Assembly: GCA_034440575.1 (NCBI GenBank)
Contig: JAOTOL010001548.1
Span: 1,699,820-1,763,819 of the forward strand
Source of the DNA: Imbricaverruca yamaguchii
Lineage: Eukaryota > Arthropoda > Thecostraca > Neoverrucidae
Reading direction: 5' to 3'
Length of the DNA: 64,000 nucleotides
Position 1 is the first letter of the stretch; every line of letters starts with the position of its first letter. A program made the position numbers and the translations under genes. Below the pieces are notes generated by a model. The model saw only the letters and a list, made by a program, of their open reading frames with translations, was not told the origin of the DNA and did not search any database. This document shows positions 7,001 through 59,310 of this stretch, piece by piece.

Positions 7001-7029
7001 CTGGGGCGGCCGCGTCAGTCACAGACAGC

Positions 7030-8525
7030 CGCCGCCCCAGCTCAACACCTGTCGGTGATGTCGACAGTTCCCTCCCCACCTCTGGAGCGGCCGCCGCCCC
7101 AGCCGACACGTGTCGGTGATGTCGACAGCTCCCTCCCCACCCCTGGAGCGGCCGCCGCCCCAGCTCAACACGTGTCGGTGATGTCGACAGTTCCCTCCAC
7201 ACCCCTGGAGCGACCGCCGCCCCAGCCGACACGTGTCGGTGATGTCGACAGTTCCCTCCCCACCCCTGGAGCGGCCGCCGCCCCAGCCGACACGTGTCGG
7301 TGATGTCGACAGCTCCTCCCCACCCTGAGCGGCCGCCGCCCCAGCTCAACACCTGTCGGTGATGTCGACAGTTCCCTCCCCACCCCTGGAGCGACCGCCG
7401 CCCCAGCCGACACCTGTCGGTGATGTCGACAGTTCCCTCCACACCCCTGGAGCGGCCGCCGCCCCAGCTCAACACGTGTCGGTGATGTCGACAGTTCCCT
7501 CCCCACCTCTGGAGCGGCCGCCGCCCCAGCCGACACTGTCGGTGATGTCGACAGTTCCTCCCCACCCTGAGCGACCGCCGCCCCAGCCAACACTCCCCCC
7601 CCACACGTGTCGGTGATGTCGACAGTTCCTCCCCACCCCTGGAGCGACCGCCGCCCCAGCCGACACCTGTCGGTGATGTCGACAGTTCCTCCCACCCCTG
7701 GAGCGGCCGCCGCCCCAGCTCAACACGTGTCGGTGATGTCGACAGTTCACCCTAGCGGCCGCCGCCCCAGCCGACACCTGTCGTATGTCGACATTCCCCC
7801 ACCCACCGCCCCCCAGCTCACCCTTTCCCCCCATCCCTCCACCCAAACCTTTGATGTCACAGTTCCTCCACCTAACCCCCCAGCCAACACCTTCCTCCCC
7901 CTGCGCCGCCCCAGCCGACACGTGTCGGTGATGTCGACAGTTCCTCCCCACCCCTGGAGCGACCGCCGCCCCAGCCGACACGTGTCGGTGATGTCGACAG
8001 CTCCCTCCCCACCCCTGGAGCGGCCGCCGCCCCAGCTCAACACCTGTCGGTGATGTCGACAGTTCCCTCCCCACCCCTGGAGCGGCCGCCGCCCCAGCCG
8101 ACACGTGTCGGTGATGTCGACAGTTCCCTCCCCACCCCTGGAGCGGCCGCCGCCCCAGCCGACACCTGTCGGTGATGTCGACAGTTCCCTCCCCACCTCT
8201 GGAGCGGCCGCCGCCCCAGCCGACACTGTCGGTGATGTCGACAGCCCCTCCCCACCCCTACGCCCCCCCGCCACACGTTCCCCCCCACCCCTGGAGCGAC
8301 CGCCGCCCCAGCCGACACCTGTCGGTGATGTCGACAGTTCCCTCCCCACCTCTGGAGCGACCGCCGCCCCAGCCGACACGTGTCGGTGATGTCGACAGCT
8401 CCCTCCCCACCCCTGGAGCGACCGCCGCCCCAGCTCAACACATATTCCCTCCCCACCCCTGGAGCGGCCGTGACAGTCACAGACGGTCGCCGCTCCAGCT
8501 CAACACGTGTCGGCGATGTCGGGGG
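7030..8525. repeat. GC-rich minisatellite, about 60-bp unit, about 24 copies, next to the EF-G stop codon
   Basis: Units consist of TGTCGGTGATGTCGACAG, TTCCCTCCCCACC, CTGGAGCGGCCGCCGCCC and CAGCCGACAC or CAGCTCAACAC. Many unit junctions form the perfect palindrome CCGACACGTGTCGG, and many units carry GCGGCCGC. The unit nearest the gene (8500-8530) merges into the end of the EF-G coding sequence, so the array occupies the 3' UTR or 3' flank. Because most units are multiples of three, long overlapping frames open on both strands; these are by-products of the repeat. The middle (7780-7920 and 8240-8290) is degenerate. Confidence 0.95.
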
Positions 8526-8720
8526 TCAGTTTCGCCGTTTGCCGGCCTTCCTGGCGTCCGGCACATCGCCGTGCAGCAGTCGCTGGTACTGCTCCACCAG
8601 GCGCGCCTGCACGTCCGGGGCCGCCGGCACGTAGCGCGAGTACTCCATGCTGAACTCGCCCTTGCCCTGCGTGCCCGACCGCAGCTCGGTGGCGTAGCCG
8701 AACATCCGACTCAGCGGCAC
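8526..8720 (-). CDS. GFM1: EF-G mt exon 15, C-terminus
   Basis: It encodes [20 protein letters not shown] and [13 protein letters not shown] of domain V, then a short tail ending KAGKRRN and a TGA at 8526-8528. The acceptor GACACCAG precedes 8720. The tail length matches animal GFM1. Array sequence starts on both sides. Confidence 0.95.
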
Positions 8721-11700
8721 CTGGTGTCGGAAAATGGGGGCAGGGGTCAGCGCCACGCTGCGGCACCGTCAGGGTCACATCGCCAGAAAAGTCAGCGTAG
8801 TAATGTGGGGAACACAGGCTCGTACTACACGGAAGAGCCAGCGCCCCACTGTCGGACACCCAGCGTAGTACTGTGGGGAAGACGGGCTCGTACTACGCAG
8901 AGTCGAGGCCCTACTGTCAGACAGCCAGCGTCATAATGTGGGAAAACCAGGCTCGTAGTACACGGAAGAGTCAGCGCCCTACCAGCGCTCTACTGCGGGA
9001 GGGAGTCAGCGGCATACTGTGTGTGTGTGTGCGGGTGGGGATCAGCGGCATACTGTGTGTGTGTGTGGGGGGATCGGCGGAATACTGTGGGGAGGAGCCG
9101 GCGCCATACTGTGGATGGTCAGCGGCATACTGCGAGCAGAAATTACCCACATACTATGGACGGGTCAGCGGAATACTACGGGAGGGGTCAGCGGCATACT
9201 ATGGGAGGGGTCATCGGCATACTGTGGGAGGGGTCAGCGGCATATTGTGAAAGGGGGTCAATGGCAAATTGTGGGAGGGCTCATCGGCATTCTGTGGCGA
9301 GAGATCATCGGCATACTGTGGGAGAAGCTGTATTTGCCTCCACACCACCGAACAAACAGGACACTGGATCCAAATTCATGTTCTTTTGCGTTTCTGCTGC
9401 AAGTACGGATCTTCATGCACGACTCATCCCATTTGAATCCGATCTATTTTTTCGTTGCATATATGTTACAGAAGTGGAATTACATATGCACACGTTTTAC
9501 AGATTGCTTAGTGAAATGCTTCGCCAATGCATAGTTCATCACTACTATACACACACGACGCAGTAGGAGAATCCAAGTAAAAGTGTTGAATCATTTCACT
9601 ACAACGCATCCCCAAGATCGACGCAGCCATGTAACCGTCAGAACAGAAAAAGGAAGTATAATATTCAACACCGGGTACACATAGTTTTTTTTCTTCTCAT
9701 TGTGCTCTTTTCCGCTAAAGCTTCGGGGTTTGGACGTACTGATACAGAAACGCTACAGGGTTCGTGTTCGTGTCGGTCACAGTCAAAAGCAAGGACTGTC
9801 CTCGGGTGGACACACCGGTTGTCCCAGGGACGGGGGTACTACATGTCCGTACCTCGGTGTACAGGGTGACCAGCCCTCATTACCGTCCTGTCACAGGGAC
9901 GGGGTTACTACGGGCCCGTACCTCGGCGTACGGGTACGTTTTTTTCTTTTTGTCTTTTTGAAAGCTTCGGGGTTTGGACGTGCTGATGAAACGCTACGGA
10001 TTCGTGTTTGAGTCGGTCACGGTCAAAAGGTGAGGACTGTCCTCGGGTGGACACACCGGTTGTCCCAGGGACGGGGGTACTACATGTCCGTACCTCGGTG
10101 TACAGGGTGACCAGCCCTCATTACCGTCCTGTCACAGGGACGGGGTTACTACGGGCCCGTACCTCGGCGTACAGGGTGAACCAGCCCTCGCTGCTGTCCT
10201 GTCCAAGGACGGGGTTACTACGGGCCCGTACCTCGGCGTACAGGGTGAACCAGCCCTCGCTGCTGTCCTGTCCCAAGGACCGGGTGTCATGGGCGCGTAC
10301 CTCGGCGTACAGGGTGAACCAGCCCTCGTTGCTGTCCTGTCCGAGAACGACGCCTGCCCGCCGGTTCAGCTGGCCAAGCACGGCTCCCTGGAACTCGGCC
10401 GGCGCGGACACCTCCACCGACATCAGCGGCTCCAGCACCTCCCACCGGCCGTTGGCGTACACTGCGGTCAGGTCGGGGCAGGTCAGTAGGCCCACCGGCA
10501 GTTGACCTACACCGCGTTCAGGTCAGCAGTTCCACCGGCCGTTGGCGTACACTGCGGTCAGATCAGGTCAGACCAGGTCACGTCAGCACGCCTTATGGAT
10601 CACTAGCGTACACAGCAGCCAGGCAGACATGTTCTCCACCGGCCGTTGGCTTACACTGCGGTCAGGTCAGGTCAGACCAGGCCACGTCAGCACGCCTCAT
10701 GGATCACTAGCGTACACAACAGCCAGGCAGACATGTTCTCCACCGGCCATTAGTCACGCCGAGCCCAATCAGGTCAGATCGCTCCAGCATGTCTCGCCGA
10801 CCGTTAACGCACACCTTCGTCGGGTCAGGGCGACTCGTGTCGGCTCCTAACACCCACCATCGGGTGCATCAGTGTCAAGTCAGAGTTGCACACTCCGCCT
10901 ACCGGTGGCATACACTGAGGTCAGACCAAGTCAGGTCGGGTAAGTGAAATCCGCCTGGATCCACAACGCCTTTTGGGGGTGAATACAAAACCAAGCGGCG
11001 CAAGGCGCTGATTTTTGGGCCGCTGTTCAATGACCGCTTGACGCTTTGCTAACATGGATATCAACGTTTTTCATATCCGCTCTTGGTGTGAACATCGACT
11101 GCTGTAATCCAGGAGACACGATGCCTTTATGCGGCTGACACTGTCAGCCGCGCTCCTGACACCACCCTCATCGCGATAAAAAAAATCCGTGGGATGTCAG
11201 GAATGCCACAACACAATTACTATTACCGGCGAAACCAGTATGAGTCGGGTTTAATGTCTCCACAATGGCTGATTTGTGTACATTGACCTTCCACACCCTC
11301 ACTAATTGGCCTTGATAAACCTTGACCTGTCACCATTCCGACGGGATCTCAAAAAGCTCTCATCGATTCCCACCTACCACTTTCTTAACACCATTGGCCG
11401 ACCTGGTCGTCCAGGTTCAGGAGCGAAATCCGGACCCTTTAGTACGTGCTATCAGCAGGAAACAAGAGCACATGGAACGTGCGTGACGAGGCAACTGCCG
11501 ATGAGAGCTCAGCGTCACCTCTCATCACCTCTCGTGTGAGTCACGTGGCGGTGCGTGGCTCACCTTCCTTGACGGCGCCCTGGCCGGCCAGAATGAAGGA
11601 GATCTCGTTTGAGTCGACAACGTGACTGGCGCCGTCCAATAGCCGGAACCGCACGCCGGAGATCTTGTGGCCTGCCGCGGACACGTGCCGGTCAGCGAAC

Positions 11701-14700
11701 ACAGGACACCCAGCGGACACCAGGTATATTCCCAACACCGGACACCCAGCGGACACCAGGTATATTCCCAACACCGGACACCCAGCGGACACCAGGTATA
11801 TTCCCAGCACCGGACACCCAGCGGACACCAGGTTATTCCAAACACCGGACTCCCAGCGGACACCAGACACCTATCCGACACCGGACACCCAGCGGACACC
11901 AGGTATATTCCCAACACCGGACACCCAGCGAACATCAGGTTATTCCAACGCCGGACACCCAGCGGACACCAGGTATATTCCCAACACCGGACACCCAGCG
12001 GACACCAGGTATATTCCAAACACCGGACACCCAGCAGACACCCGGTACCTGTCCGACACAGGACAGCCAGCGGACACCAGACTACCAGCGGACACAATAT
12101 ACATTTCCGACACCGGACACCCAGCAGACACCAGGTTCCTGTCGAACACCACACAGCCAGCGGACACCAGGTACCTTTCCGATACCGGACACCCAGCGGA
12201 CACCAGGTACCTGTCCGACACCAGACACCCAGCGGACACCAGATAACTGTCCGACATAGGACAGTCAGCAGACACTAGGTACCTGTCCGACACAGGACAG
12301 CCAGCAGACACCAGGTACCTGTCCGACACAGGACAGCCAGCGGACACAAGGTACCTGCCCGACATCGGACACCCACCCGACACCAGGTACCTGTCCGATA
12401 CCAGACAGCCAGCGGACAAGGGGCAGTGAGAGAATGTGGTGCAATGCGGCATCACTCTACAGATTTTGCTTTACAATGTGATTTGGGCCCAAAATATCTA
12501 GTGTACGCCATGCGACGTTGATTTAAAACGCCTCACGCCCAACGCTAAGCATGCTGAAAACGGAAGCTACCCGAACCCCGAAATGCATCCAGTGTCCCAG
12601 TGTCCAACTATAGAACACGGACGAGGATTATAAGGCGATTGCATTTCCTTCCTCAAAGGGATCGACTGCCCTACGCATGGTCTTTCAGTCTGTACAAAAC
12701 CTGAAGCACACGAGGAGAATGTTATATTGTGTGTTGATAGCCATGCCGAAGAGCTAACCAACCGGAGGGCGCCCATGGAAGGAAGACGAAATGCATTAGT
12801 CATAGGCCTTATGATATACAACACACTCATATAACAATATAATAGCTTCTCCGGCCTCAACATTTTCCACGGGTGGAAGATGTTAACGTCCAACAGGTCT
12901 GTCAAAGACGCATCAAGGGGGAGACGCATCGCACCTGTCAGACATCCCTTTTCTACCATGTTCATGAATCCCTTCTTAATAGCGGGTACGAACTGCTTGG
13001 GCACGTTCGTGCCCACAGTCTGGTCGACGAACTCCAGCTGGGTGTTGTTGGCTGCACCCAAAGGCTGTAAACAAACACCGGCCGTCAGACTGCGGACCAA
13101 TGAGCCAGAAGGTGAGCAGGCCACCGGACAAACGACATCGGCACTCCGCGACCGGGTTAAGCACCTCAAATGCATGCGAAAACGAACCACAACACTCCAT
13201 TTCGCCAGTCACCGTGCGTTTCGTGGGGGTGGTAGTATCGGTTCAACATGGTAGTAGCCACCTATCACGACAAAACATGTCATCTTTCCTACCGGAATAT
13301 TCCACAGCCCAGCGTCAATAATTAGATAATTGAGGGGAAAATAGCAATTGGAATAGTATTTACGTCCTGAATGGAACACATCGGATTATTGGTAAAACAT
13401 ATCCAGCTCGTAACTCATCTTCTCCTTTATACTTGCATGTTTCACCGGCCATGTAAATTGTCTGTTAAACAACCTATGATAAATAACATGCAATCTAAGC
13501 TCTTTTCACCCATTCTGAGTTGTAGTGTTGCTAAGTGCCGACGAGAAAATTTAATTATTAAACTCCATGCAAATTGTAAACATACCTTTCGATATTTAGT
13601 TCCATGTTTGAGAGCAAACATTGGATCCATTTACATCTGACGACCCACTCCAAGTTAATGTCGCCAAGCTGTTGCACATAGCCGTCTCTCCTCATGTCGA
13701 CTATCAGCGCCAAGAGACATATAGTTTACTGATTTACATTACGTGTGTGTGCACAGACATCTATCTCTCTGGTTGCAAAGTCCTGCGCGAGAAGTCAGAG
13801 TTAGGTGTGAGCTGTAGCTGTGTCAATTTGTTTGCGTGATATGTAAGGACCTAATCCAAGAGGAACGTGAAATACACATCTGAATGAGCGCAATCCAAGA
13901 GGAACGTGAAATACACATCTGAATGAGCGCAATCCAGGAGGCACGTGCAATATACATCTGAATGAGCGTAATCACGATCGTTACGCATTGTCTCCGGGGG
14001 ACGAATAGCCTATGGGTAAGTTGCTCGTCTCACAGTCGAAAGGTTATGGGTTCGAGTCTCACCTGTCGCTGCTCTTCGCCCGCGACCAATCGGCATGAGA
14101 GATTGGCGACGTGTCGTAAAAAAAACAATAACCAATACGCATTGTCTCCAATTGGCTATATGGTTAACTAAGACTAAAATGGTTAACCCACGCAGTGCGA
14201 GGAGAGGAGAGGGGAAGAGAAAGAGGAGGGGAAAGGGAGGGAGGGGAATTTGATCAACTCCGCTGAGGTTTTCTGATATAACTGCCAAATCGTTCCAGAT
14301 ATCACCGTGAAATTTGGACCATCTTCGGACACTTGACGAGCACACTTTCCCTTATACATGAAAAATCCAGTCGGTTACGATCACGGAGCTACAGCAGGTC
14401 ATAATCAGGTCATAACCTCGTCTGGATTAGTCGTACATTGCAACATTTATGAAGAATAAACTACAGACGATACAGTACGAAGCAAAATCACATTGCATAA
14501 GCGAAAAAAAGTGAATACGGAGTGATCTTAGGGTTTGTCACCAGGTCTAAGGGAGATTATATATACAGCTATTCAATGGCGCCTATTTTCGTTGCGGATT
14601 ATTTTCGTTGCGGATTATTTTGTCCTTAAAAAAGAAGAAGAATAAATCAACAAAGAATTGTCTTACTTTATGTCTAATAGTTGTAAAGCTTCACATCAAT

Positions 14701-17700
14701 ATCAGATCATGTCAGCAAGATATGACCTGAAAAGTGCCGAGGGTACACATTACCGACAATGAAGGACAAAATACGACATATTACAAAATATAAATGACTG
14801 AATCAGGGTTCCCAAGGGTACCCTTGAACGCCGAATTCAATTTAAAAAAAATTTGTTCGCTCCGAAAAAAAATTAGAAAAGGACTATTTTTGGATTATTC
14901 TTCAAACTTGTGGCATGAGACTCACAGCTTGCACTTTTCAGTAAATATCGAGTACTTTATCACAGAATGGCATATTTTCAAACAGTACGATTCAACCTCC
15001 AAATGAGACAACATGAGAGGATAATTTTCTGAGGACAATTATGTTTTGGGTGGTAAAAATCTACAAGCAGTCTATTTTTACGACCTTTACAGATAATCCG
15101 CCATTCAGGAGCTTGGACTGACCTCCAAGTTATTTCGGCTTTAGGGCGCATCGACTGCACTGACCATGTAGCTGGACTGACCTCCAACGCACCGACCATT
15201 CGCCCGTACTGCCGATAGTCGGCCATTCAAGATGCTGGACTGACCTCGAACACACCACCGTACTGCCGATAGTCGGCCATTAAGGAGACTGGGCTCACCT
15301 CCAACACACCGACCACTCGCCCGTACTGGCCGGCGCCGCCAGACTGCTTCTTATGCTGGTAGTCGAACTCGCATGGCTGCAGCAACGTTTCCCGGTAGGC
15401 CACCTTTGGCTCGCCCATCACCACGGGACAGTTGTACTCGCGCTCCATGCGCTGCAACCACGTTATCATTACACCACCATCAGGCTCCAGCAGCGTCCAT
15501 CGCCGCTTATGGCCTTCATGTATATCTGCGAACACTTAATATGATGGCTGACGAACAAAGAAAAATTACAAGTGATCAATTTCATTTATGAGCCATGCCG
15601 GATATGCGCATGGTGGTAGTTAAGGGCCTGGGGACGCGTCGGTGATGTGCATGGTGGCACTTCATGGCCTTGGGGAGCGTCGGCTCATAGGCAACATTGC
15701 GCACTTCATGACGTAGGCGCGCCTTGATTCCTAAGCCGCACACAAATACGCTATGGGTATATGATTTATTGATTATTTGGGCTTAAGGGCGCATCAACTG
15801 CTACTAGTTATGTAGCGGCCAACCGTGGGTATATTACTCGCATGTTTATGCCGTGAAGCTGATCTGAAGCAAGAAACCTATGAACACGACCTAGCAATTC
15901 GTTCGTGTTATATTGAGATATGGAGAAGAAAAATAGCTGTATTGTGAATTAACCATAAAGTAGACGCCGTACCCATTCTCTATTTGAACATCATTCACCG
16001 CTAAAATACATTCTTTAGGCTTCTCCACCGATCTCCTTGTCGGGTGTTTCGGTGTGTGCGCACCTGGGAGTAGATATCGAGGTGTAGCTCTCCCATACCA
16101 GCTGCGATTGTCTCCTTGGACTCCTCATCGTACATTATCTTGTACGTGGGGTCCTCTCGGGTGAACCTGCCAACGGTCGGGTGTTGTTTATCGAACCCGG
16201 GCTGTCGGTCCGAGCAGCGGCAAAACAGCCCGGCAAAACAACCCAGCAAAACAGCCCGGCAAAACAACCCAGCAAAACAGCCCAGCAAAACGGTCACAAA
16301 CACCAATGCCCCATCGACTGTGGTCAGCAATCTCGTATCAGAAAAGCAGCAATCACGCGCCACATTTGGGGATTTATACCGTTTCAGTTACATAGCGTAG
16401 CAGAGCACATCGACCCCGAACGGCTTATCCCACCTGTTGACCGCCTTGCCGAAGTTTTCTATATCCTTGCTGTTCTTGGGCTTGATGGACATCGATATGA
16501 CTGGGTCCGGCACGAAGATGGATTCCTGAGGCGGGCGTGAAGTGGCAGCAGTCAGCAGTTGGCACCGGTCGGTGATATCTCAACCACCAGTGCTGTATGG
16601 CACAGTCCAAACTAGGCAAACTTTTGTCAGGTCGAATAACTTGTTGGATAGTTGTGATATTTTGGACATTGTTTGGAAAAACACTTTTACAAACAAAGTA
16701 AAATTAGGAGAGAAGCCAAATTGCGATGATTGACATTTTGCTCATTGACTTGGATAATCGCACAGCATTGGCTAAGCTGTGAAAGGTGGCGCCTTGCTTT
16801 GCCATTGCTCGCCTGAACTAAGCGAGCAATGGCATATATATGCTATATATATAAACGCTTATATATGCTAAGCGAACTAAACATATATTCAATTTAGCAC
16901 AACATTTTTATATTGCTGAAAGATGCACTAGGTTAGAAATATGCCTAGTAAAAACCGTCTTGTCGTCTTCACTATCCTATTCAATGCTTAGGGATAATCT
17001 CAATTCATTGATAAAGGCGTTTATCTACGGAGTCCCTTCAGGTTTCTATACGGCAAACATTTTACATAGCTCGCTAATTGATGTATTACATTATAACTTT
17101 GTTTGTTTCTTTGCCACATTGCCCAAGCCGTTACATGATGGCTTCAAAACATGGAATTGTCTTGTCCAATTCACCAGTTTCGACAGATTTTTGACTAGGA
17201 AGAAACTGCTGTTGGAACTTGGTTGGGAACGAGCTTGAAATTTCCTTCCACCCGTAACACGAACGATCATGCCAACGAAGCTGGCACCCGGGATAGTTTT
17301 CAGATTCAATGATGCCCTGTACATGTCTACACATAGCATCCGTCAAGTGCCGTAACCTGCCTGACACATGCCCAGGCATGGCTATCGCCAATACGACAAA
17401 CACGGGATTCAGATTGAACACTAATGGAGTCGAATCGCAGGTGAAAATTGCGCCATATACCCTGCAATCGGTACATAATGCCGTGATGGCCTCAGTACAA
17501 CTGTCTTCAACAGAAAACCGACGTCAGCTACATGGCCATGGAAGCCGATTGCTCCAAAAACCCACATGACCAAATAACCCAACAAGGTATCGCCTCCACC
17601 GGAACGCACCATGGAGAGCTTCAGTTGATTGTTGCAGACAAACGAGTCTCCGGAGGCACAGTCGACACCAAACAGGGCGAAAATGTCGCCGGCGAACACC

Positions 17701-20700
17701 TCGGTCACGTCCTCCAGCTGATCAGCGTGCAGTCGGACGAGCCGGGAGACGCGAACCTGTCGACACCGCCACACCGTCACACAGGCGTCCGTCAGCGGTC
17801 ACCTGGCCCTGGCCGGACGAGCCGGGAGACGCGAACCTGTCGACACCGTCACACAGGCGTCCGTCAGCGGTCACCTGACCCTGGCCGGACCTTCACGTGG
17901 TCACACCACACTATATCACACCACGCCACACGGTCGTCTGTCGACGGTGACCCAGCCACATCACCTCACCGGTACCTGACAGAGTCCTAAAACTACTTCA
18001 CCATTAACTGTGTGGATGAAGACAGAAGTTGCTTGGGAATAGTGAAAGATTGGAAGAAAATAAAGGATCGCCACTTAAGGATTAAAAAAGCAGAATGGCT
18101 TTCACTTCAGTCACATGCATTGACATTTTTTAGCAGTCGTGTGTATAATGAGTGCCCACGCATGTAGCAAAATGGTAAAAACCTAAGACAAGGATGAAAT
18201 AGCACAATTTCATTAACTGTGAATTTCCAGGCCACATGGTCAATTGTTTTACACTGGAACCTGATCACATCACACCACACCATACCACATCACACCACGC
18301 CACGCGGATGGGTGCTGCATAACCACTGCAGTCGATGTGCCCCTAAGCCCCAATACACAAACAACAAACAACAAACACTCGCCACGCGGTCGTCTGTGGA
18401 CAGTGACCCAGCCACACCACCTCACCGGTGCCTGGCCACATCACACCACTCGCCACACGGTCGTCTATCAGCGGTCTCCCAGCTACATCATCCCACCGTC
18501 ACCATGCTACACTCTTCCACACAGCCACCGACAGACGCCCGCTAAACCGGACGTACTGACCCGTAGCACGGGCTCCAGACTCTTCTTATTCTGCTATTTA
18601 CTCGCATTCATTGAACAGGGATGGCTTACATTATTACACACACGCGTTTGAAGAAGTAGCCGACGGGATGGAATTGGGCAGACATGTCACGCGTCGGGCT
18701 CCAGCCCGACCCACGGCACCCCGCATTGCAACAAACTCATCAAAATCATCTCTTGTACACACATAACTACACTAGACGCAATGCAGGTGATTAATATCTA
18801 CTCACAACGCGGTCACAAAATCAATTAACCAATGGAATACACGTGACGTTGACCGGCGCAGCACACACCAACCACCACCCAACCGCTAGCGTCCGGCGTG
18901 GCTACCACCTTTTTGCCGGTCCTCGTGTTGAAGATGGTCTCGCCCTTGGCGAGGCGGCCTTGGTAGCAGCGCAGGTAAGTCAGCTGGCCGAACTTTCCCG
19001 CTTCCAGCTTGAAGGCGAGCGACACAAACGGGTGCGTATTGTCGCGGCGAGGGTCCATGCGGACCCTGGTGGGCTGACCCTCGGGTCTGGCCGGTCGAGC
19101 GGAGCAGGTCAGCAGGGCAAAGCGACACCAGTTGGTCATGCGTGTGAGAACGCCCCGGGGCCATGTTTGGGAGAATGATAGTGGCAGCCGACGGGGAAGA
19201 GCGTAAGAGGAAATCTGAAGGTCGTGTGAAACAAGGCAACTCCTGACAATTAAACAGCCACAGGAGACATGGAGTAATAGTCATACTGACGAGCTATGGC
19301 ACACTAAGTGCTACGAAATGAAAACAGATGTCATGATCAACATACATTTCACGGGAGACGAGAGAAGTCAGAGGCATGACAGACGCATACGTCACGGGTT
19401 GTGCGACTGACGAAGATATAAGAGTACATCACGGGAGCACGTGCGCGACCCATGGAGGCGTGCGGGACCCATGAAGACGTGCGAGACTCATACAGACCGC
19501 GCGACGCCTGGGACACGTAAGACGCCGACACCGCGGGAGTTTATTGGATCGTTCACGACGCACTTTATGCACATTTGCGGCTAATGGCGCCGACACCGTG
19601 GGAGACGCGACGCGAGACACGAGCGAATGAACCGACCTAAGAGTTTAGAGTCTGGCCGGCCAGGCGGGCGCTGCCACTCACGTAAGACGCGCCTCATCAA
19701 GTGCGAAGTTGTCCACCTGCGACGGGTTCGGCAGCAGGTCCAGCACGCCGTCCAGCAGCGGCTGCACGCCGCGGTTCTTCAGAGCGGTGCCCATCATCAC
19801 GGGCGTGAAGAGTCGCGCCAACGTGGCGCGCCGTACGGCCGCCACCAGCTGAGGCTCGCTCGGAGTCAGCTCCTCTGGAGAACACGCGGCGCCTGTTATT
19901 AGCCGATGTTGGGTCCTCCCACGACATACTCTGTACAAGACGTGGTGCCCATTATAAGCCGATGTTGAGTCCTCATACGATTATCGCTGTACAAGACGTG
20001 GTGCTCACGATACGCCTATGTTGGGTCCTCCCACGACATACTCTGTACAAGACGTGGTGCCCATTATAAGCCGATGTTGAGTCCTCATACGATTATCGCT
20101 GTACAAGACGTGGTGCTCACGATACGCCGATGTTGGGTCCTCCCACAACATACTCTGTACAAGACGTGGTGCCCATTATAAGCCGACGTTGGGTCCTCAT
20201 ACTACCATACACAGTACAAGACGTGGTGCCTACCATAAGCTGAGGTTCGGTCCTCCCACGACAACTCTGTACCAGTCGTGGTGTACACTAAACACTGAGG
20301 TTGAATCAGGGTTAAAATATTGTTTTTTTCGTTAGGTGTGAGATGTCGAAACGAGTGCAGTAGGATGTCGAAATTTGCCTAGGAATTAGTGTCACTTAAA
20401 ACGCTTTTGATGTCTTCAAACTCAAATGTCAGCCAATGGTGTAGGTATGCATGCTTGCACCCTTATCATTTGTTTTTATATTATTAATATAAGAAGAGTT
20501 ATAGTCGGGATAGGGAGAATAGTAACTATGCTATAATTTGGTATTGCATGAAATTCACATTATAGGCAATTCCTTCACCTGGAATTGCATTGTGAAATGT
20601 TCGTGTACCACCATTCCTTATTGAGAGAATGCAAATGAGATAATGCTACTTATAAATGAGATACTGTCAGAAAGGAGACATGAAGACCTCATAAATATGT

Positions 20701-23700
20701 ATCACGGAGCAGAATGCCAATACTCCTTGGAGAAGGATGTCGATTGAGTGTTCAGAAAATGGCATATTCCATCCTATTTCGTGCATAATTTATAACTGGG
20801 TTGAGTCCTCCTTCGACATACTCCTCTGTATCAGACGTGGTGTCAACTAAATACTGAGGTTGATCCCTACGACATACTCATCTGTACAAGACGTGGTGTC
20901 CACTAAACGCTGACGCTATGGTCCTCCTAAGACATATTTATCTGTACAAGACGTGGTGTCCACTAAAATCCCGATATTGGGTCCCCCTACGACACGCTGT
21001 ACAGGACGCAATACCCATCATAAACCAAGGTTGGGACCTCCTACGACGTACTCTTCAGTGCAAGACGTGGTGTCCACTAAAAGCTGGGGTTGGGTCCTGC
21101 TACGACATGCCCCGTACAAGACGTGGTGCCCACTATAAGCTGGGGTCGTCTCCCTTTACGACATACCCTCTGTACAAGACGTGGTGTTCACAATAAGATG
21201 GTCCCTTGTGACGTCATCCTCTGTACTCTAAACACGCGCATGACCCCGACCGACGCTTACGAACGATGGGGACCAGTAAGCGCGTTACCACCAACACATG
21301 ACCAATACTTTTTTGTTTATTTGGCCTTAAGGGCGTCTGAACTGCTATTGGTTATTTAGCATGACCCATGTTTGTTAGGCTAGGTTAGATTGGGGTATTT
21401 AGATTCATTCCTTCCACCCGACGGCCATAGGCAGGTCACAGGCAAACATAGTAGACCTGGCTGCAGCACAGTGCGAATCCAGGGTTGGCAGCAGCCGCTG
21501 GTAAACACCGCTGGTGTCAGAACTACGTGCATGCGTCAGGCAGATGGTGTAAAGCGAACCAAACCATCGATCCGACGGCCTGCGTGCAAAAAAGAAAGAC
21601 AATCTCATCCCACGGTCCTGAGATAACGTACGCAAACTGAACAACTCACCCAGGAACATGTTGCCCAACTCTTCGTCCACGTTGGCCACGTGCTCAATCA
21701 GCTCCGCTCGTGCCTCCTCGGCATGTGACCTCAGGTCAGCAGGAACCTCGTCATACCTAAGTGTCTCACTGAAAACAACGTAACATGTCACCGCCTCCCT
21801 ACCAGGGGCCGTCACCAACTCACTGGGAACGACGACAGAGCGTGTCACTTTCCCATTGGAGACGGTGAGCAGCGTCGTATCAATGGCTCCCCGACAGTCC
21901 TTATCCAACAACATTGTGTGGGTCCTCGTAGCAAAGCAGAGTGCGAGTGCGAGCCCACCGGAGTACCAGGGTGCGGGTGAGGGTCTCAAGGGGCACCAGG
22001 GTGCGGGTGCGAGCCCATTGGAGTACCAGGGTACGGGTGCGAGCCACCGGAGTACCAGGGTGCGGGTGCGAGCACACCGGAGTATCACAGTGCGGGTACG
22101 AGCCCACCGGGGTACCAGAGTGTGGGTGCGACCTCTCATGGGGCACCTCATGGGCATAATTCGAGCACCGGTGTGAATCCTCATAGGACGCCAGTGTGAG
22201 AGAGTGCCGAGACGTCACAACCAATCAAATAATAATACATTAATGCCTTTATGAATCTATTGAAAGCAGTTTCTGCAAAAAGGTACAAATATTTTAAGAA
22301 AACAGATCATTATATCCGCATCCATTCTATTTAACGGTACAGTTAATGGCGTATTCAGGACAGTTAGTCATGCGACCTCTCCTAGCAGGGGTCAGTTTGC
22401 CTTTCTTGTCACAACAAAATCCAGTATTACGAAAACCTAATAAAATATCACGAGCATAATCATCTCAGAAATTGAAAACAGAATATCAGCAACTACTATT
22501 TCCGAATGGCCCTTGAAGAGTGCCAAAGGAGTCCTATGCAGTCCCCATGGGAGCCTGCAATTGACATGTGTCCCATAGGCCCAGCACAGTACCTAATTTT
22601 CGTACTCGAAAATTTCTGTACACGCAACCTCACTGGAGGTTGTGTGCGCGGGCGGAGGATGGCTGTGTACTCGAGCACACCGAAGACCACCTTTTCCTCT
22701 GGAAGGGATGTCTTTGGCAGACAAACCAGTTGAGCGCGGTGGTCAGGGAGTGCACTAGAACCTTCCTGGAGGAGCGCCTTTCCGGCCGGAGGGGCGCCAC
22801 CTTAAGTGACTTGGCAATAGCGATCGTGCACGTCCGGCAAGGGTCGTTCCATAGTTCCCGTTCGATCACTGGGTTAGCACGTATTGGGTTTCGATCACAA
22901 GTTAAGCAGCATTGGGCCCGGTTAGCACGTATATGGGTGACCGCCTGGGAACATCGGGTGTCGTCTCTTCTCGTTTACTTCAGAGGGATAGTGCGATCAG
23001 GCGAAAATCTCTGAGTCCACATCGCGTCCCCACCCGATACCGGGAACCCAGGGTGACGCCCCACTTGTGGCTAGTCCTGGGACTATTACCCGACATGATT
23101 ACATGTCAACCACACCTCCAGGTCTTCACCAGGTGAACATGCATAACGTCAGGCAAGCACCGGAAACCTCCCAATTATGCAACTGATCTAACTTTGTACC
23201 AGAAATGTTCCGCAGCGAATGGTGCTTGTGTTGTTTTGCTGTTGTGCTGTTAAAAAGAACGAAACTAGCTAGGAAAGACATGATGTATGGTACTTTTACA
23301 AGGCGTAGTTGGAGAACATTAGGTTATTTAATGCAGTATTCATAGGAGTGCATACAGCACTGTGCACTGCAAACCTGGCACGCATCTCCTGGCTATGCAG
23401 GCCCAGGCCATGGTGATTACCCAAATGCGCCGTCGAAGTAGATGGCCTTTCTGTGTATGAGGTCCACCAGGCCGCGGGTGTCGCTCTCCTTGCCGATCGG
23501 CAGCTGAAGAAACGCCGCATTGTGGTTCATCTTGGACCTGTGGAGCGACACAACCGTCACGTGACCTACGGGGGGATACAACCGCCACTTGACCTGCGCC
23601 TGCATGCTAACATCACCGCGAGAGACGAACGCCAGTGTCACCGTGTGCTCTGGTTCTGCCTCCACCGCCGGTAACCGGCCTGTGGTAGTAGTAACAGACA

Positions 23701-25362
23701 AACCCAGATGCCTGGTATAGGCCACAGCACAAGCCGGTCACGCCAGAAATCGCAATAAATGCCAACATTGTGGCGCTCTCCGCAGGCAGCATTGATGGCC
23801 ATAGCACACACCTGACCCAATGATTGACTGATTGATTGATTATATGGGCTTAAAGGCACGCCGACTACACGGTCATTTGGCACCCACCTGACCCAATGCA
23901 CATAGCGGGTTAATTCCTACTCCCATGTGACGAACGAGGTAACTGAGGGCAGGTGACGGAAGTTATGGCTTCACCCTTCAGCTTTCCACCAACCGCAACT
24001 GCTGGAGGAAGTCATAGCACCTCCGCTCACCGTAGCTGATTGGGGGCGTTATGCACCTCCCCTACCCCCGCTCACCGCAGCTGGTGGAGAACGTTATGCA
24101 TCTCCCCAACCCCCGCTCACCGGAGCTGATGGAGGACACGATGCGGGTTGGCGCCCATCCGATCCAGCTTGTTGATAAAGGCGATGCAGGGTACCTTGTA
24201 GCGTTTCATCTGTCGATTGACGGTCAGCGTCTGACTCTGTACACCGCCGACGGCGCACAACACCAGCACGGCGCCGTCCAGTACCCGCAGTGCGCGCTCC
24301 ACCTCCACTGTGAAGTCCACGTGACCTGCGGCACAACCCGGGTCAGTGAAGTCGACGTGGCCTGCTGACGCGGCCCGCGCCAGTCAAGTCGACGTGACCT
24401 GCTGACACGGCCCGGGCCAATCAGGTCGACATGACCTGCTGACACGGCCCGGGCCAGTCAAGTCGACGTGACTTGCTGACACGGCCCAGGCCAGTCAAGT
24501 CGACATGACCTGCTGACACGGCCCGGACCAGTCAGGTCGACATGACCTGCTGACACGGCCCAGGCCAGTCAAGTCGACATGACCTGCTGACACGGCCCGG
24601 ACCAGTCAGGTCGACATGACCTGCTGACACGGCCCGGACCAGTCAGGTCGTAGTGGCCTGCCGACACAGGCCGGTTCGGACGGGCACTACCTGCCGACCA
24701 TGTGCATACGCACATCCCAGCTGCAGCCGTCAGACCGTAGGCATGCCGCGTCACACCTCCAAGCATATCAGATCATATTGATGTCCTCCTGCTGCAAACC
24801 CAGCACGCACAACCACCAGCGTTTCATTACATAGTGACGTTCATGCAAAGTAAAACACTTCGGATTTGCTCACCACCTATGCCATCCAAATTATACTTCA
24901 TAGAAAGTTAGGTGCAATCGTCATCATGCACTCAGATGTCATAGCACCGCAAATCGCCTGTACCGATGAAATGTTTCCACTTCTGTCAAACACTCACTAT
25001 GCACCAAACGACACGTCTCCGGTACGCCACCAATGTACACACCATATATTGAATAACGACCCAGTGGGATTGGTTCAATCCAGTGTTAAAATAATGTTTG
25101 TTTTTTCACTAGATGTGAGATGCACAAGTGATTATAAAAAGATATTGATGCTACAATTACCTATGACAAATTATATCGTTTAAGATACCCTCGAAATTAC
25201 CAAGACTATATTTTGAATCAAGAGAATATATGCACATTTTCCACTTGTTTTGACATCCACCTAATTTGAGGATACCTATATTGTTAATAGCAAAACATGT
25301 TGGTGCTATTGACTGATATTCATCAGGCTACATCAGCACATATATATATATATATTTTTTTT

Positions 25363-25417
<55 letters not shown>

Positions 25418-25472
25418 TATATATATATATGTATATATATATGTATATATATGCATGTATATATATATACAC

Positions 25473-25510
<38 letters not shown>

Positions 25511-28500
25511 GGGGACGAATATCCTAGTGGTAGGCTGCCCGTCTCACAATCGAAAGAGTGTAGGTTCGAGTCTCACCTGACGTACTCTTCGCTCGCGACC
25601 AATCGGCGTGAGCGATTGGCGACGCTAAATGACTGAACGGTCGACGTGTCGTAAAACTAATAATCACCAATCACCATATATATTTACTTACCCAGAATTG
25701 TGCTCCCGTATATTCGTGCATCACAATGGAATGTGTTCATATTTCCACAGTTCATAACTCCCAACATTCATAAGTTCCCAATTGGAAGTTAACTTCCAAA
25801 AAGTGGAAATGAGGTTCCAAAACAGCTTGCATAGGATGTGTTATATCTTCAAAAGTACATATCTTCGAAAATTTACAACTTCAAAAATTGGAAGCCTAGG
25901 TCTACTAGGTTCCTAGCAGGGTTCGTTTAGAAGTTAGCTTCAAATTTGGAAGCTATGCACATTGGAATCATGTACTTTCGAAGATATTATACCCGCCCTT
26001 CACACTCCATAATGGTGAGCATAAGCATGATAACACGCATCAAGAAGTACGATGTCGATACCTCTTTGGAAAGAATACAGATTATTCACGTCGATTGTCA
26101 CTCGTGTAAGCTGACTACCTGATGGTGCCAATGCACCAGAGTAATGTGCCAATCAATAGGGAATTAACATCCCAGAGTAGTGCGGCACCGAGTGAATATA
26201 TTCATTTGATGTAGATCAGGTTTCCCTTAGCAAAGTTATTCAATATAATCACTTTCAAACTCCGGAATGCAGGCATTTGTAGATATTAATTTCCAAGTTC
26301 AGTTTACAAATTAATAATCCGAATCCAGCATCACGCCTGTTTTTGCCGAACAGCTTTTGGGCTCAAAGTGAGATGAATATAAGTTACTTTTATGCCTAAA
26401 TTTTCATTCATTTTTCATTCCTCCATAAGCATTCACATCACTTTCAATACATCCATAACATTTATGGTACAATCATGTACACAACTGACTGACCAAATGA
26501 AATAAGAAGTATACAATATACTGAAATTGAACTTCGACTGATCTTCAGCCACCATCAAAGAATTATCGTCCAAGGGAGAGTTAGCTGCGCGTTCGTTGGC
26601 GCAGAGTTGCAGATCCCTCATGTTGCCACCGACCTGGAGTGTCGATGATGTTGATGTTGTGGTCTTTCCAGACGGTGTAGGTGGCCGCAGACTGAATGGT
26701 GATGCCGCGCTGTCGCTCCAACTCCATAGAGTCCATCACGGCGCCCACATTATCCTTCCCGCGAACCTGCCGTCACCAGAATAGTGATGGGCATGGTCGG
26801 CAACCGCAACACTAATTATCCAACTCCATAGAGCCCATCACGGGCCCACATCATCCTTCCCGCAGACCTGTCGTTACCTGCAAAGAGGCGAGGCACACAT
26901 ACAGGCACATAGACACAGCCATGGAGGCAATGGTAGTCACCGACATAGAGGTGGATACAGACTGTAGCTGCAATACTCACGCAATCATCCCGGCGAACAT
27001 GCAGCTGCCGACGTAGAGGTGGGCACACAAGGCAACTGCGATACTCATGCTGTCGTCCCGGCGAACCTGCAGCTGCCGACGTAGTGGTGGGCATACAAGG
27101 TAACTGCGATACTCATGCTATCTTCCCGGCGAACCTGCAGCTGCCGACGTAGAGGTGGACACACAAGGTAACTGCGATACTCATGCTATCTTCCCGGCGA
27201 ACATGCAGCTGCCGACGTAGAGGTGGGCACAGACTGTAACTGTGATACTCATGCTATCTTCCCGACGAATCTACAACTACCGACATAAAGGTTGGCTCTG
27301 ATTGTAGCTACAGTGCTCGTTACTATTTCCCGTGAATCTGCAGCTACCGATATAGAGTCGGGCATCGGCCCCCAAACGTTTGACGAGCTTACCAATAAAT
27401 CTAGAATGGGCGCTGCAATGAAATAAATAACTTCAAAGTGGCTCTTTACCCACCTCCACTCTCCAACTTTGAGACAATTTCTACATCTCTGGGAGTAGTG
27501 CCTTATTAGTGTTAAACCAATAGCTTTTCGTTAGGTGCGAGATGTCGAAACGAGTACAGTAGGATGTCGAAATTCGCCATGGAAACAATGTGGCTTCACA
27601 CAACTTTATGTTCTACAACAAAAATCGGATGCAACAGCGAACTCATACGTGCACCTTTTTCGTTTGTTTACATTGGGACAACTAATTCAACGATAACGAT
27701 GCAAAATACCTGTACTTATCAACTGATATTGTATAACAGACCGCACCACAAGTAATCTTCTTACCTGGAATTGTGTTAGGAGATGCTCGTGCATCACGAT
27801 CCGCAATGGTGAGTACCAGCATGACGCGTATCAACGATATACTGTTAGAAGTAATGATTGAAGACTCCATAAAGACTTATCAAGGGGCACGATGTCGATA
27901 CTTGTTTGGATGGATGTCGATTCAGTTTTCAGAAGGTTGTATATCCCCCCAATTTCACGAATAATTGATCACTGTGCAGTTTCCGTGCAATCCTTGCCAT
28001 GAATATGCGGCCCCCGACGTAGTGCTGGAGATGGACAGCAACCACAGCAGACATAACGTCAAGACGTAGGAAATCAGGATATCATCAACACCGCATTTTC
28101 TTCCGCGACACAAGAACCGACGGACCGACTTTAGACCATGGTATTGACACAGGAGAGTGGAACGTTCCCATGGCTCGGTAGCAAGCACTAGATATCACAT
28201 CACCCATGCTTTTATTCGACGAGCAATTCCACCCAGTGCACTGACGAAAAGTCGCTTATCACAATGGGTCAACAAACTTAACAAACTGAACAAATTCAAC
28301 AACAAAGGAACGAAAAAAATAGCACACAATTACATATTGTTTGTTGTTTGTTTCTTGGTTGGTTAACGACACACTTTATGCACATTCACGGCTAATGGCT
28401 CCGCCCACACTGTTTCGCCGGTGGGCCGCGGGATTTGGAAATGTCCTGAGTGGCGCTAGAGTCGAACCCGGGACCTTTGGTACCCATAGCCCGACACCTT

Positions 28501-45416: not shown

Positions 45417-45799
45417 TTATTAATCAAAAGCCAATCCAGATAGCAGTGGATAAGATAATCGGCCGGCCCTCGGCTGCTAATTGTGGTGGTCGGCCCACGT
45501 GACCACACCTTCAGACGTGTCTGTCAGCCGTGGACGTAGATGCTGTGCTGTGTGGAAGGTCAGCGGGTACAAGTCATGTAGACTCCGCTGTGTGGAGCGT
45601 CAGCCGGTACTAGAGATGTAGACTCCGCTGTGGGGGGCGTCAGCGGGTACAAGAGATGTAGACTCCGCTGTGTGGAGCGTCAGACGGTACTAAAGATGTA
45701 GACTCCGCTGTGTAGGGCGTCAGCCGGTACCAGAGATGTAGACTCCGCTGAGTGCGGTGTAAGCGTGTACCAAAGATGAGGACACCGCTGTGTGGAACG

Positions 45800-46273
45800 C
45801 AGTTATAAAATATTCGTGAAATAGGGTGGACTGTACCACTTTCTTCCCACTCAATGAAAATCCTTCTCCAAGAAGTATCAACAACCTGATCCTTGCATGG
45901 TTGTGAAGTCTTCATGTCTCCTTTCTAGTAATATCTCGTTTATTGGTGGCATGTGAATGCTCTCGAGTAGGAATGGCGATACCGCCAACATTTCGCAATG
46001 CAATTTCAGGTGAAGAGATTACGCATCATGTGATATGACATATAATACCGGTTCATAGCATAGTTTTATTATCCCTATCCCGCATATATCTCTTCATGAA
46101 TTACAAAACAAATGATAAAGGTACAACCCTAAGTACGTACATCATTGGCTCAAATATGATCTGAAAGATATCCAAAGCATCATAAATCACATTAATCCCA
46201 TGGGAAGTTTCAACATCCTACTGTGCTCGTTTCGACATCTCGCACTCAGTTAAAGACCATTACTTTAACTCTG
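45800..46273 (-). mobile_element. hAT-like MITE inside minisatellite of repeat R
   Basis: Minus-strand copy of the 20307-20798 family, 474 bp, ending CAGTTATAAA on the plus-strand left and TTTAACTCTG on the right. Flanking 8-mers are GTGGAACG (45792-45799) and GTGGGGCG (46274-46281), six of eight matching. It splits the 40-bp minisatellite. Confidence 0.82.
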
Positions 46274-46768
46274 GTGGGGCGTCAGCTTGTACCAGAGATT
46301 TAGACTCCACTGTGGGGCGTCAGCCGGTACCGGAGATGTAGACTTCGCTGTGTGGAGCGTCGGCGGGTACCGGAGATATAGACTCAGCTGTGTGGGGCGT
46401 CACCATGTACCGGAGATGTAGACTCCGCTGTGTGGGACGTCAGCCTGTACCGGAGATGTAGACTCCGCTGTGTGGGGCGTCGGCCGGTACCGGAGATGTA
46501 GACTTCGCTGTGTGGAGCGTCGGCGGGTACCGGAGATATAGACTCAGCTGTGTGGGGCGTCACCCTGTACCGGAGATGTAGACTCCGCTGTGTGGGACGT
46601 CAGCCTGTACCGGAGATGTAGACTCCGCTGTATGGGGCGTCGGCCGGTACCGGAGATGTAGACTTCGCTGTGTGGAGCGTCGGCGGGTACAAGAGATGTA
46701 GACTCCTCTGTGTGGGTCGTCAGCGGGTACCAGAGATGTAGACACGTAACGACATTGGGAACCACGGC

Positions 46769-57834: not shown

Positions 57835-59310
57835 GTTGGTAAAGGCCGTGGTTCCTAATGCCGTCACGCGTCTACATCTCTGGTACCGGCTGACGCTGCA
57901 CACAGCGGAGTCTGCATCTTTAGTACCGGGTGACGCCCCACACAGCGGAGTCTACATCTGTGGTACCCGCTGAGGCCCAACATTGAGTGTTTCACGACGC
58001 ACTTCATGTACATTCACGGCTAATGATGCCGCCCACACTGCTTCGCCGGTGAGCCGCGAGATTGGGAAATGTCCCGAGCGGCGCGAGTGTCAAACCTGGG
58101 ACCTTTGGTATCCAGAGCCCAACACCTTAACCACTCGGCCATCTCCGCCCCGCTGAGACCCAACACGGCAGAGTCTACATCTCTAGTACCCGCTGGTGCC
58201 ACGCACAGCGGAGTCTACATCTCTAGTACCCGCTGGTGCCCCCACAGCGGAGTCTACATCTCTAGTACCCGCTGACCCTCCACACAGCACAGTATCTACG
58301 TCCACGGCTGACAGACACGTCTGAAGATGTGGCCACTTGAGCCGACCACCACAATTAGCAGCCGAGGGCCGGCCGATTACCTTATCCACTGCTATCTGGA
58401 TTGGCTTTTGATTGATAACGGCCTCGGCCGGCCGGACCGAGGCGGTGTGATGAAGGACGACCCAAGAGAGCAAGGTGACGCCATTGAACTCACTGAGAAC
58501 GCCTCGGGTAACGCTACGCAACATCAGGAAACGCTCTCGACACACCCAGGAGACTCTCGACACACCCAGGAGACTCTCGACACAGCCAGGGAACTCTCGA
58601 CACACCCAGGGAACTCTGGTCACACAAATAGGAGACACCCTCGACACCACCAGGAGATGCTCTTAACACAAGCGGCCGGCAGTCTATTTGTTTGTGTCGT
58701 GAGGCGATATCCCCATATTCTTTGTTTACTGAGTATCACACAAAGGGCGCACACTTTCTGACGTGGCGGTGTTTCGGCCGCAATTGGTGATGTGGATTGA
58801 AAAAATTGCAGTGCAATTAATCAAAATACAGTCGACCTGAATCCAGCCGGGTCTCGAACCGTTCCTTCGTGCGGCCTGGAGGCTGGGTCCGGCGGACTGC
58901 CTTACATACTTCCATCCCAGGATCTCGGAAGCTATGATCCCCACACAAAGAATGCAGTCCGATAGCCATGGTGATCCCGGAAGAATTTAACGACGTTTAT
59001 ATTTGAACGAGAATTAAGTCACTGCAGGCACCTGGTCGCTGCACCTCACTTGGTAAGGAATTCGACTCTTTATCGTAGTATCGTGGGCTCGAATCCAGCG
59101 GGATTATCGAAGCCAGCGGCATCACGGCATCTGACCGCTACCAATCGGTATACAAGTTTGGCAACACTAAATGCCTGGCAGTCGAAGGTGTTGCAACAGA
59201 AACCTAAGCTCTTCTTTTATTGCCAGCACTTATGTGGTCCTTTTGACGGCACTTTTTCCGCGAAGGTCCCAAGAAATCACCCACACGTTTTAAAAAATAT
59301 ATCTTGTTTT
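57835..59310 (-). repeat. Composite repeat family R, copy C (reverse)
   Basis: It begins at AGGCCGTGGTTCCTAATGCC (same border as 46740-46770), contains the 40-bp minisatellite (57870-57968 and 58166-58300), the CCGATTACCTTATCCACTGC module, CTGAGAACGCCTCGGGTAAC, the 20-bp minisatellite (58530-58640), GGCCGCAATTGGTGATGTGG, and the tRNA-like module on the plus strand (about 59025-59190; GGGCTCGAATCCAGCGGGAT). A family 2 SINE is inserted at 57983-58151. Confidence 0.85.
57983..58151 (-). mobile_element. tRNA-derived SINE, family 2, inserted in repeat R
   Basis: The head GGGGCGGAGATGGCCGAGTGG is cut here to its A box GGCCGAGTGG and a degenerate B box, with the tail ATTAGCCGTGAATGTACATG. GCTGAGGCCCAACA (57969-57982) and GCTGAGACCCAACA (58152-58165) flank it; this may be a target duplication or two neighbouring minisatellite units. 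Confidence 0.85.

Follow-up and report, generated by a model that had tools for sequence, protein, structure and literature searches.

How do the edges of exons come to be repeated, in register and several times over, inside the introns that they border? The question is raised by a stretch of 64,000 nucleotides from the barnacle Imbricaverruca yamaguchii (GenBank assembly GCA_034440575.1, contig JAOTOL010001548.1, positions 1,699,820 to 1,763,819; hereafter the window), which forms the end of a 1.76-Mb contig in an assembly of 767 Mb and 1,430 contigs and which encodes the mitochondrial elongation factor G (EF-G; gene GFM1) on the minus strand at 8526-29776, in 15 exons numbered 1 to 15 in the order of the gene. 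A first-pass annotation of this DNA had proposed that eight or more edges, on six or seven exons, were copied outward as tandem arrays, through slippage or repair-driven duplication starting at exon borders, and had known of no described class of this kind. We consider it probable that the arrays are mirage-type minisatellites, that is, that they arose by ordinary tandem duplication in a genome rich in minisatellites and are tolerated where they cross the ends of exons.

We searched a 33-nt core centred on each splice edge in that edge's own intron, and accepted a copy if it matched at 22 or more of the 33 positions, lay within 700 nt and scored higher than any site in the other 38 introns that we examined (the core scan). 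By this measure 7 of the 28 splice edges of GFM1 have in-register intronic copies, namely the acceptors of exons 2, 3, 8 and 14 and the donors of exons 3, 11 and 14. The pattern first annotated is thus present, at a smaller count of seven edges on five exons. The ladders (window coordinates) are the following.

26717..27364, minus strand: exon 2 acceptor ladder, edge 26766, near copy 26819-26878
26939-27364, minus strand: 68-bp array of the exon 2 acceptor, units with a more diverged acceptor and exon start
24310..24674, minus strand: exon 3 acceptor ladder, 37-bp units, 8 copies upstream of edge 24325, AG kept in 7 of 8
24019..24134, minus strand: exon 3 donor ladder, 45-bp units, edge 24121
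17734..17890, minus strand: exon 8 acceptor duplication, unit of about 80 bp in two copies, decoy core 32/33 identical to edge 17756
15092..15328, minus strand: exon 11 donor ladder, copies at +54 and +117, weaker remnant 15092-15128, edge 15299
10429..10937, minus strand: exon 14 acceptor ladder, 40- and 104-bp periods, edge 10461
9717..10349, minus strand: exon 14 donor ladder, 69-bp units in a 241-bp higher-order repeat, edge 10301

Besides the splice site, the copies contain about 10-50 nt of exonic sequence, and their greatest extent into the exon, taken edge by edge, is 16-50 nt. At the seven edges the E-values of the top BLAST copies range from 2e-13 to 9e-39, and the edge-spanning copies in the BLAST list are 72.5-92.5% identical to the true edge. 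Measured from the true edge, copies lie at 36, 73, 110 and so on to 295 nt for the exon 3 acceptor, at 45 and 90 for the exon 3 donor, at 54 and 117 for the exon 11 donor, at 80 for the exon 8 acceptor, at 69, 138, 207 and then 379 and 448 for the exon 14 donor, at 50, 90 and 194 (with weaker ones) for the exon 14 acceptor, and at 300, 368 and 436, in 68-bp steps, for the exon 2 acceptor, which has one near copy at 101. Because these distances track the unit length, each exon edge is one rung of its ladder; in-register spacing bears out the earlier description of a true exon edge that ends the ladder and of copies that carry a few codons and the splice site.

The count for GFM1 changes little with the threshold (7, 7 and 6 of 28 edges at 20, 22 and 24 of 33), and the controls are empty, with 0 of 28 for reversed cores and 0 of 56 for exonic sites 55-70 nt from the edge. 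The exon 15 acceptor array, which had been claimed less clearly, was rejected, since its best core reaches 18/33 against a chance maximum of 19. Two further acceptors fail the core scan: exon 5 has a single site at 19/33, equal to the chance maximum, and exon 6 has one at 20/33 (chance 18) but 1,295 nt away. At exons 6 and 13 the adjoining arrays stop at the edge or a few bases before it, and BLAST gave no edge-spanning copy at either.

19873..20307, minus strand: intron 5 array, 56-bp units, stops at the exon 6 acceptor with no edge-spanning near copy
11677..12418, minus strand: intron 12 array, 36-bp units, stops about 6 nt before exon 13, edge not spanned

These edges depend on a gene model built by tblastn with the protein of the barnacle Amphibalanus amphitrite as guide, followed by a search for GT-AG junctions and a check of the joined frame. 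All exons below are on the minus strand and were placed by tblastn and GT-AG junctions; 29776 is the 5' limit of the protein match, not a mapped edge.

29776 (match limit)-29630, minus strand: exon 1
26766-26634, minus strand: exon 2
24325-24121, minus strand: exon 3
23537-23421, minus strand: exon 4
21768-21650, minus strand: exon 5
19874-19682, minus strand: exon 6
19086-18909, minus strand: exon 7
17756-17610, minus strand: exon 8
16525-16434, minus strand: exon 9
16166-16064, minus strand: exon 10
15451-15299, minus strand: exon 11
13064-12935, minus strand: exon 12
11671-11564, minus strand: exon 13
10461-10301, minus strand: exon 14
8720-8526, minus strand: exon 15

All 14 introns are GT-AG and the frame of the joined exons is open up to the stop codon. 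The draft protein matches PDB chains of mitochondrial EF-G over 696 of 705 residues; its best relative is that of Amphibalanus amphitrite (83% identity), and 119 other matches are listed at 68-72%, those inspected by name being from arthropods. The Amphibalanus amphitrite protein has no insert at the exon junctions, and no second GFM1 copy is found among the assembly matches listed. An intronless EF-G-like open frame of 761 amino acids, 37% identical to barnacle GFM1, lies at G000:C1360:503560-505686 and may be either a relative without introns or a contaminant of bacterial origin. Directly after the GFM1 stop stands a 61-bp array at 7028-8526; the first unit that can be recognised in it starts about 10 nt or less from the stop and contains no copies of coding sequence. 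The window also holds retroelement open frames with RNase H (PF00075; 1071-2408, minus strand) and reverse transcriptase (PF00078; 36699-37421, plus strand), and, outside GFM1, two 40-bp arrays about 11 kb apart at 45547-46743 and 57870-58274 with related units on opposite strands.

For comparison we used the CCT chaperonin family, picked by family and compactness: CCT7, CCT4, CCT2 and part of CCT8 (4 introns), in all 25 introns and 50 edges. The choice was not fully blind, as long open frames hinting at arrays were visible for the CCT7 and CCT2 contigs. In the core scan at 22/33, 6 of the 50 edges have edge-spanning intronic copies (CCT7 intron 3 donor and acceptor and intron 7 acceptor, CCT4 intron 4 acceptor, CCT2 intron 5 and intron 6 donors), which indicates that edge-spanning arrays are not peculiar to GFM1. 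Acceptors and donors are both affected, with 4 and 3 in GFM1 and 3 and 3 in the CCT genes. The only passing CCT4 edge is a weak match, at 22/33, and none of the 8 edges in the CCT8 part has copies. Reversed cores pass at 1 of 50 CCT edges (1 of 78 pooled with GFM1), and the number of passing edges falls from 9 to 6 to 4 of 50 at 20, 22 and 24 of 33; the three edges lost between 20 and 22 are the CCT2 intron 1 donor, the CCT2 intron 3 acceptor and the CCT7 intron 6 donor. CCT7 intron 2, whose odd donor may be misplaced by a few bases, was scored as a miss. The joined exon frames are open in this comparison as well, and the CCT2 protein is 88% identical to that of Amphibalanus amphitrite and 90% to two further proteins, its relatives being 534 amino acids long (length alone compared). 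One CCT gene occurs on two contigs (C89 and C1012 of G000), as haplotypes or recent copies, and its exon-to-exon distances differ between them by about 66, 52, 122 and 8,860 nt, differences that are not tied to arrays.

The recurrence of the pattern also bears on the thought that the assembler created the arrays or enlarged them. One copy in CCT2 and two in CCT7 hardly differ from the true edge, as such an artefact would have it; against this, an assembler would not invent divergence of the degree seen among the GFM1 copies, and the pattern is found in 4 of the 5 genes examined, on four contigs. We regard an assembly artefact as extremely unlikely.

Are exon edges special, or do they share in a general abundance of repeats? 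In eight 10-kb stretches, taken blind from contigs longer than 0.67 Mb, minisatellites cover 11.4% on average (range 0.8-32.5%), and in the GFM1 region they cover 21%. Scored by position, edges look covered about as often as the rest of these repeat-rich introns [GFM1: edges 7/28, intron background 173/739, Fisher P = 0.82; CCT: 6/50 and 156/1045, Fisher P = 0.69; pooled: 13/78 and 329/1784, P = 0.77], the P values being rough because the positions that one array covers depend on each other. At exonic sites 55-70 nt from the edge the pooled result is 0 of 156 at 22/33 and 1 of 156 at the laxer 20/33. A profile by offset from the edge (threshold 20/33; GFM1 and three CCT genes) shows 7/28 at the edge of GFM1 exons, 7-10 of 26-28 at +12 to +250 and 0/28 at -60, and for the CCT genes 9/42 at the edge, 4-9 of 39-42 beyond it, with dips to 4/42 at +12 and 6/42 at +25, and 0/42 at -60. 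Array coverage fades across about 40 nt of exon, and in GFM1 it is level from the edge into the intron. These figures do not bear out the earlier claim of arrays starting at exon borders, with the reservation that counts of whole arrays, given below, leave a possible excess.

An origin by ordinary duplication would run as follows. Replication slippage, or repair between short direct repeats, would produce short tandem duplications throughout genes, and a duplicated segment of about 25-100 bp would by chance overlap an exon end, its exon-distal copy then turning intronic. The gene would survive such an event because the exon-adjoining copy still gives the used splice site and leaves the exon unchanged; duplications within exons would be purged by selection. 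Copy-number change, homogenisation and decay would afterwards be confined to the intronic side, and for this reason the ladder would begin at the exon and extend outward. The youngest case is CCT2 intron 5, where a 96-bp unit running from -49 to +46 of the edge has been doubled once and is 98% identical. The 8-nt sequence TGTGCGTG stands at its exon breakpoint (-51) and again just beyond the second copy (+143), beside a GT tract, and these matching ends support slippage or microhomology-mediated tandem duplication, of which they are the expected mark. We infer a like origin, by slippage or microhomology repair, for the older arrays. The exonic share of the unit ranges from 0.29 to 0.74 in 11 hand-listed arrays (two weaker CCT edges omitted; Kolmogorov-Smirnov test against uniform, P = 0.22), a spread compatible with random breakpoints. 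Of the mechanism first suggested, the slippage or repair component thus finds backing in one young case, and the start at exon borders does not.

The description of these introns as fields of decoy splice sites is upheld. We scored 46 decoys, selected by their match to the edge, at 12 edges (7 in GFM1 and 5 in the CCT genes, the CCT7 intron 3 acceptor being unscored) with a matrix from other introns; GT or AG is preserved in 38 of the 46, and 12 equal or exceed the score of the true site. The nearest GFM1 decoys would keep the frame without a stop at the exon 3 acceptor (-36), the exon 11 donor (+54) and the exon 14 donor (+69, also +138), and most other GFM1 decoys tested would introduce a stop. 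The nearest intact donor decoy lies at a multiple of 3 in 5 of 6 donor arrays of GFM1 and the CCT genes (P = 0.018, uncorrected, post hoc and from a small sample), and the corresponding numbers are 2 of 6 for acceptors and 7 of 12 for all arrays (P = 0.066). Among the decoys scored we saw no consistent pattern of branch-point loss that might account for the choice of the true site. The decoys are presumably passed over in splicing.

Such retention of splice signals would also be expected if the ladders were kept by selection, to tune splicing or to supply new exons or introns, as has been proposed for amphioxus globins, and the decoys that equal their true sites and the triplet spacing of donor decoys fit that idea. 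Retention of GT and AG is, on the other hand, what recent copying predicts in decoys picked by edge match, and acceptor decoys of GFM1 bring in a stop in 13 of the 15 tested. The exon 3 frame, moreover, stops 1 nt into the intron, so that an in-frame donor decoy there yields no protein, and this too counts against a selected function, which we think very unlikely.

Several observations weigh against ordinary duplication as a full account. Clear microhomology is seen in one array only, the young one in CCT2, whereas the older arrays have diverged copies, and correct splicing is judged from the open joined frames and the proteins of relatives. The chief point is a count of whole arrays. If each array starts as one unit at a random position, and the spans given by Tandem Repeats Finder (TRF) are taken as observed, 5 arrays cross an edge in GFM1 where 1.87 are expected (22 arrays, P = 0.042), 4 in the CCT genes where 1.71 are expected (23 arrays, P = 0.095), and 9 in the pooled data where 3.58 are expected (P = 0.011). 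We relied on these TRF spans (5 and 4), since the core-scan counts (7 and 6) are not like for like with a TRF expectation. Permutation tests with arrays from self-BLAST were dropped, as self-BLAST of a clear tandem array gave the full-length self match alone, and self-BLAST array coordinates were kept solely where other evidence of an array agrees. The excess is suggestive only, and leaves room for a true edge preference; we treat it as unproven because GFM1 was chosen for its pattern and because an edge array cannot decay at its exonic end. As for enrichment in other genes, which the first-pass annotation had envisaged, the CCT genes reproduce the pattern, show no excess by position and give an array count that leaves a possible excess.

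Splice sites might be favoured in this way if duplication were set off by some process at exon borders, for instance breakage or slippage associated with splicing or with transcription. Such a process would account for the pooled excess of edge-crossing arrays, for GFM1 coverage that lacks the drop toward the edge to be expected of arrays that merely avoided exons, and for CCT coverage that is higher at the edge than in the dips just beyond it. The per-position comparison (P = 0.77) and the CCT genes taken alone (P = 0.095) argue the other way, and edge arrays may simply be easier to detect if selection blocks the decay of their exonic end. We hold duplication initiated at edges to be unlikely. 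A broader conjecture, which we put forward tentatively and as rather doubtful, is that tandem duplication in barnacles begins or survives preferentially at exon edges, at about 2.5 times the random rate, and that leaky use of donor decoys selects unit lengths that keep the frame. If so, live decoy ladders would be present in thousands of genes, and a second animal phylum would have in them a lasting supply of new exons and introns.

Ordinary duplication tolerated across exon ends, the reading that we prefer, places the barnacle arrays beside known systems. Repeats of this type are called mirages, and their founding paper reportedly appeared in Nucleic Acids Research in 2002. According to two later papers (PMC3087553; PMC3902484, on PGBD5), mirages are minisatellite-like tandem units across exon-intron boundaries of amphioxus genes, among them Adh3 and troponin C (as cited in PMC3902484); both 5' and 3' boundaries are affected, unit lengths are 10-160 bp, the units diverge, many but not all keep AG/GT, regular mRNA splicing is undisturbed, and lengths are unstable between haplotypes and even somatically. 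As mirages are described in amphioxus, the earlier impression that no class of this kind had been described was wrong. Literature searches turned up no mirages beyond cephalochordates, barnacles and other non-chordates included, and the terms "minisatellite", "tandem repeat" and "tandem" were not found in the accessible text of two barnacle genome papers (PMC8917513, PMC8270832); the barnacle arrays therefore seem to extend the mirage class to a new host.

Like mirages, the barnacle units span the exon-intron boundary (7/28 GFM1 and 6/50 CCT edges), duplicate acceptor and donor boundaries alike and mostly keep AG/GT (38/46 decoys). They differ in their host, an arthropod rather than a cephalochordate, in reaching 7 of the 28 edges of one gene, and in that the edge rate was measured against an intron background. 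For the amphioxus mirages there is evidence from reverse-transcription PCR on splicing, and evidence of length instability; the barnacle arrays are known from the assembly. A repeat type known from amphioxus is now seen in a second phylum, at a frequency (6/50 edges in the four CCT genes, which were not selected for the pattern) that permits statistics. True and decoy splice sites of near-equal sequence adjoin, often several per intron, and a rule for exon-proximal choice is therefore testable with RNA reads.

With ordinary intronic minisatellites the edge arrays share unit sizes, copy structure, density and the same array field, and differ in that coding sequence and a splice site are carried solely by arrays with a unit that runs across the end of an exon. 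They also resemble intron gain by tandem duplication of proto-splice sites (the Rogers model; Zhuo et al. 2007 and Gao and Lynch 2009, as cited in PMC3087553), of which the potato RdRp gene is reportedly a case (PMC4974935), in that duplication across AG/GT places splice sites in series. In that model a new intron arises within an exon, whereas the barnacle arrays lengthen existing introns, and the long-standing notion that such duplications give rise to introns and exons becomes testable here with RNA reads and the genomes of individuals.

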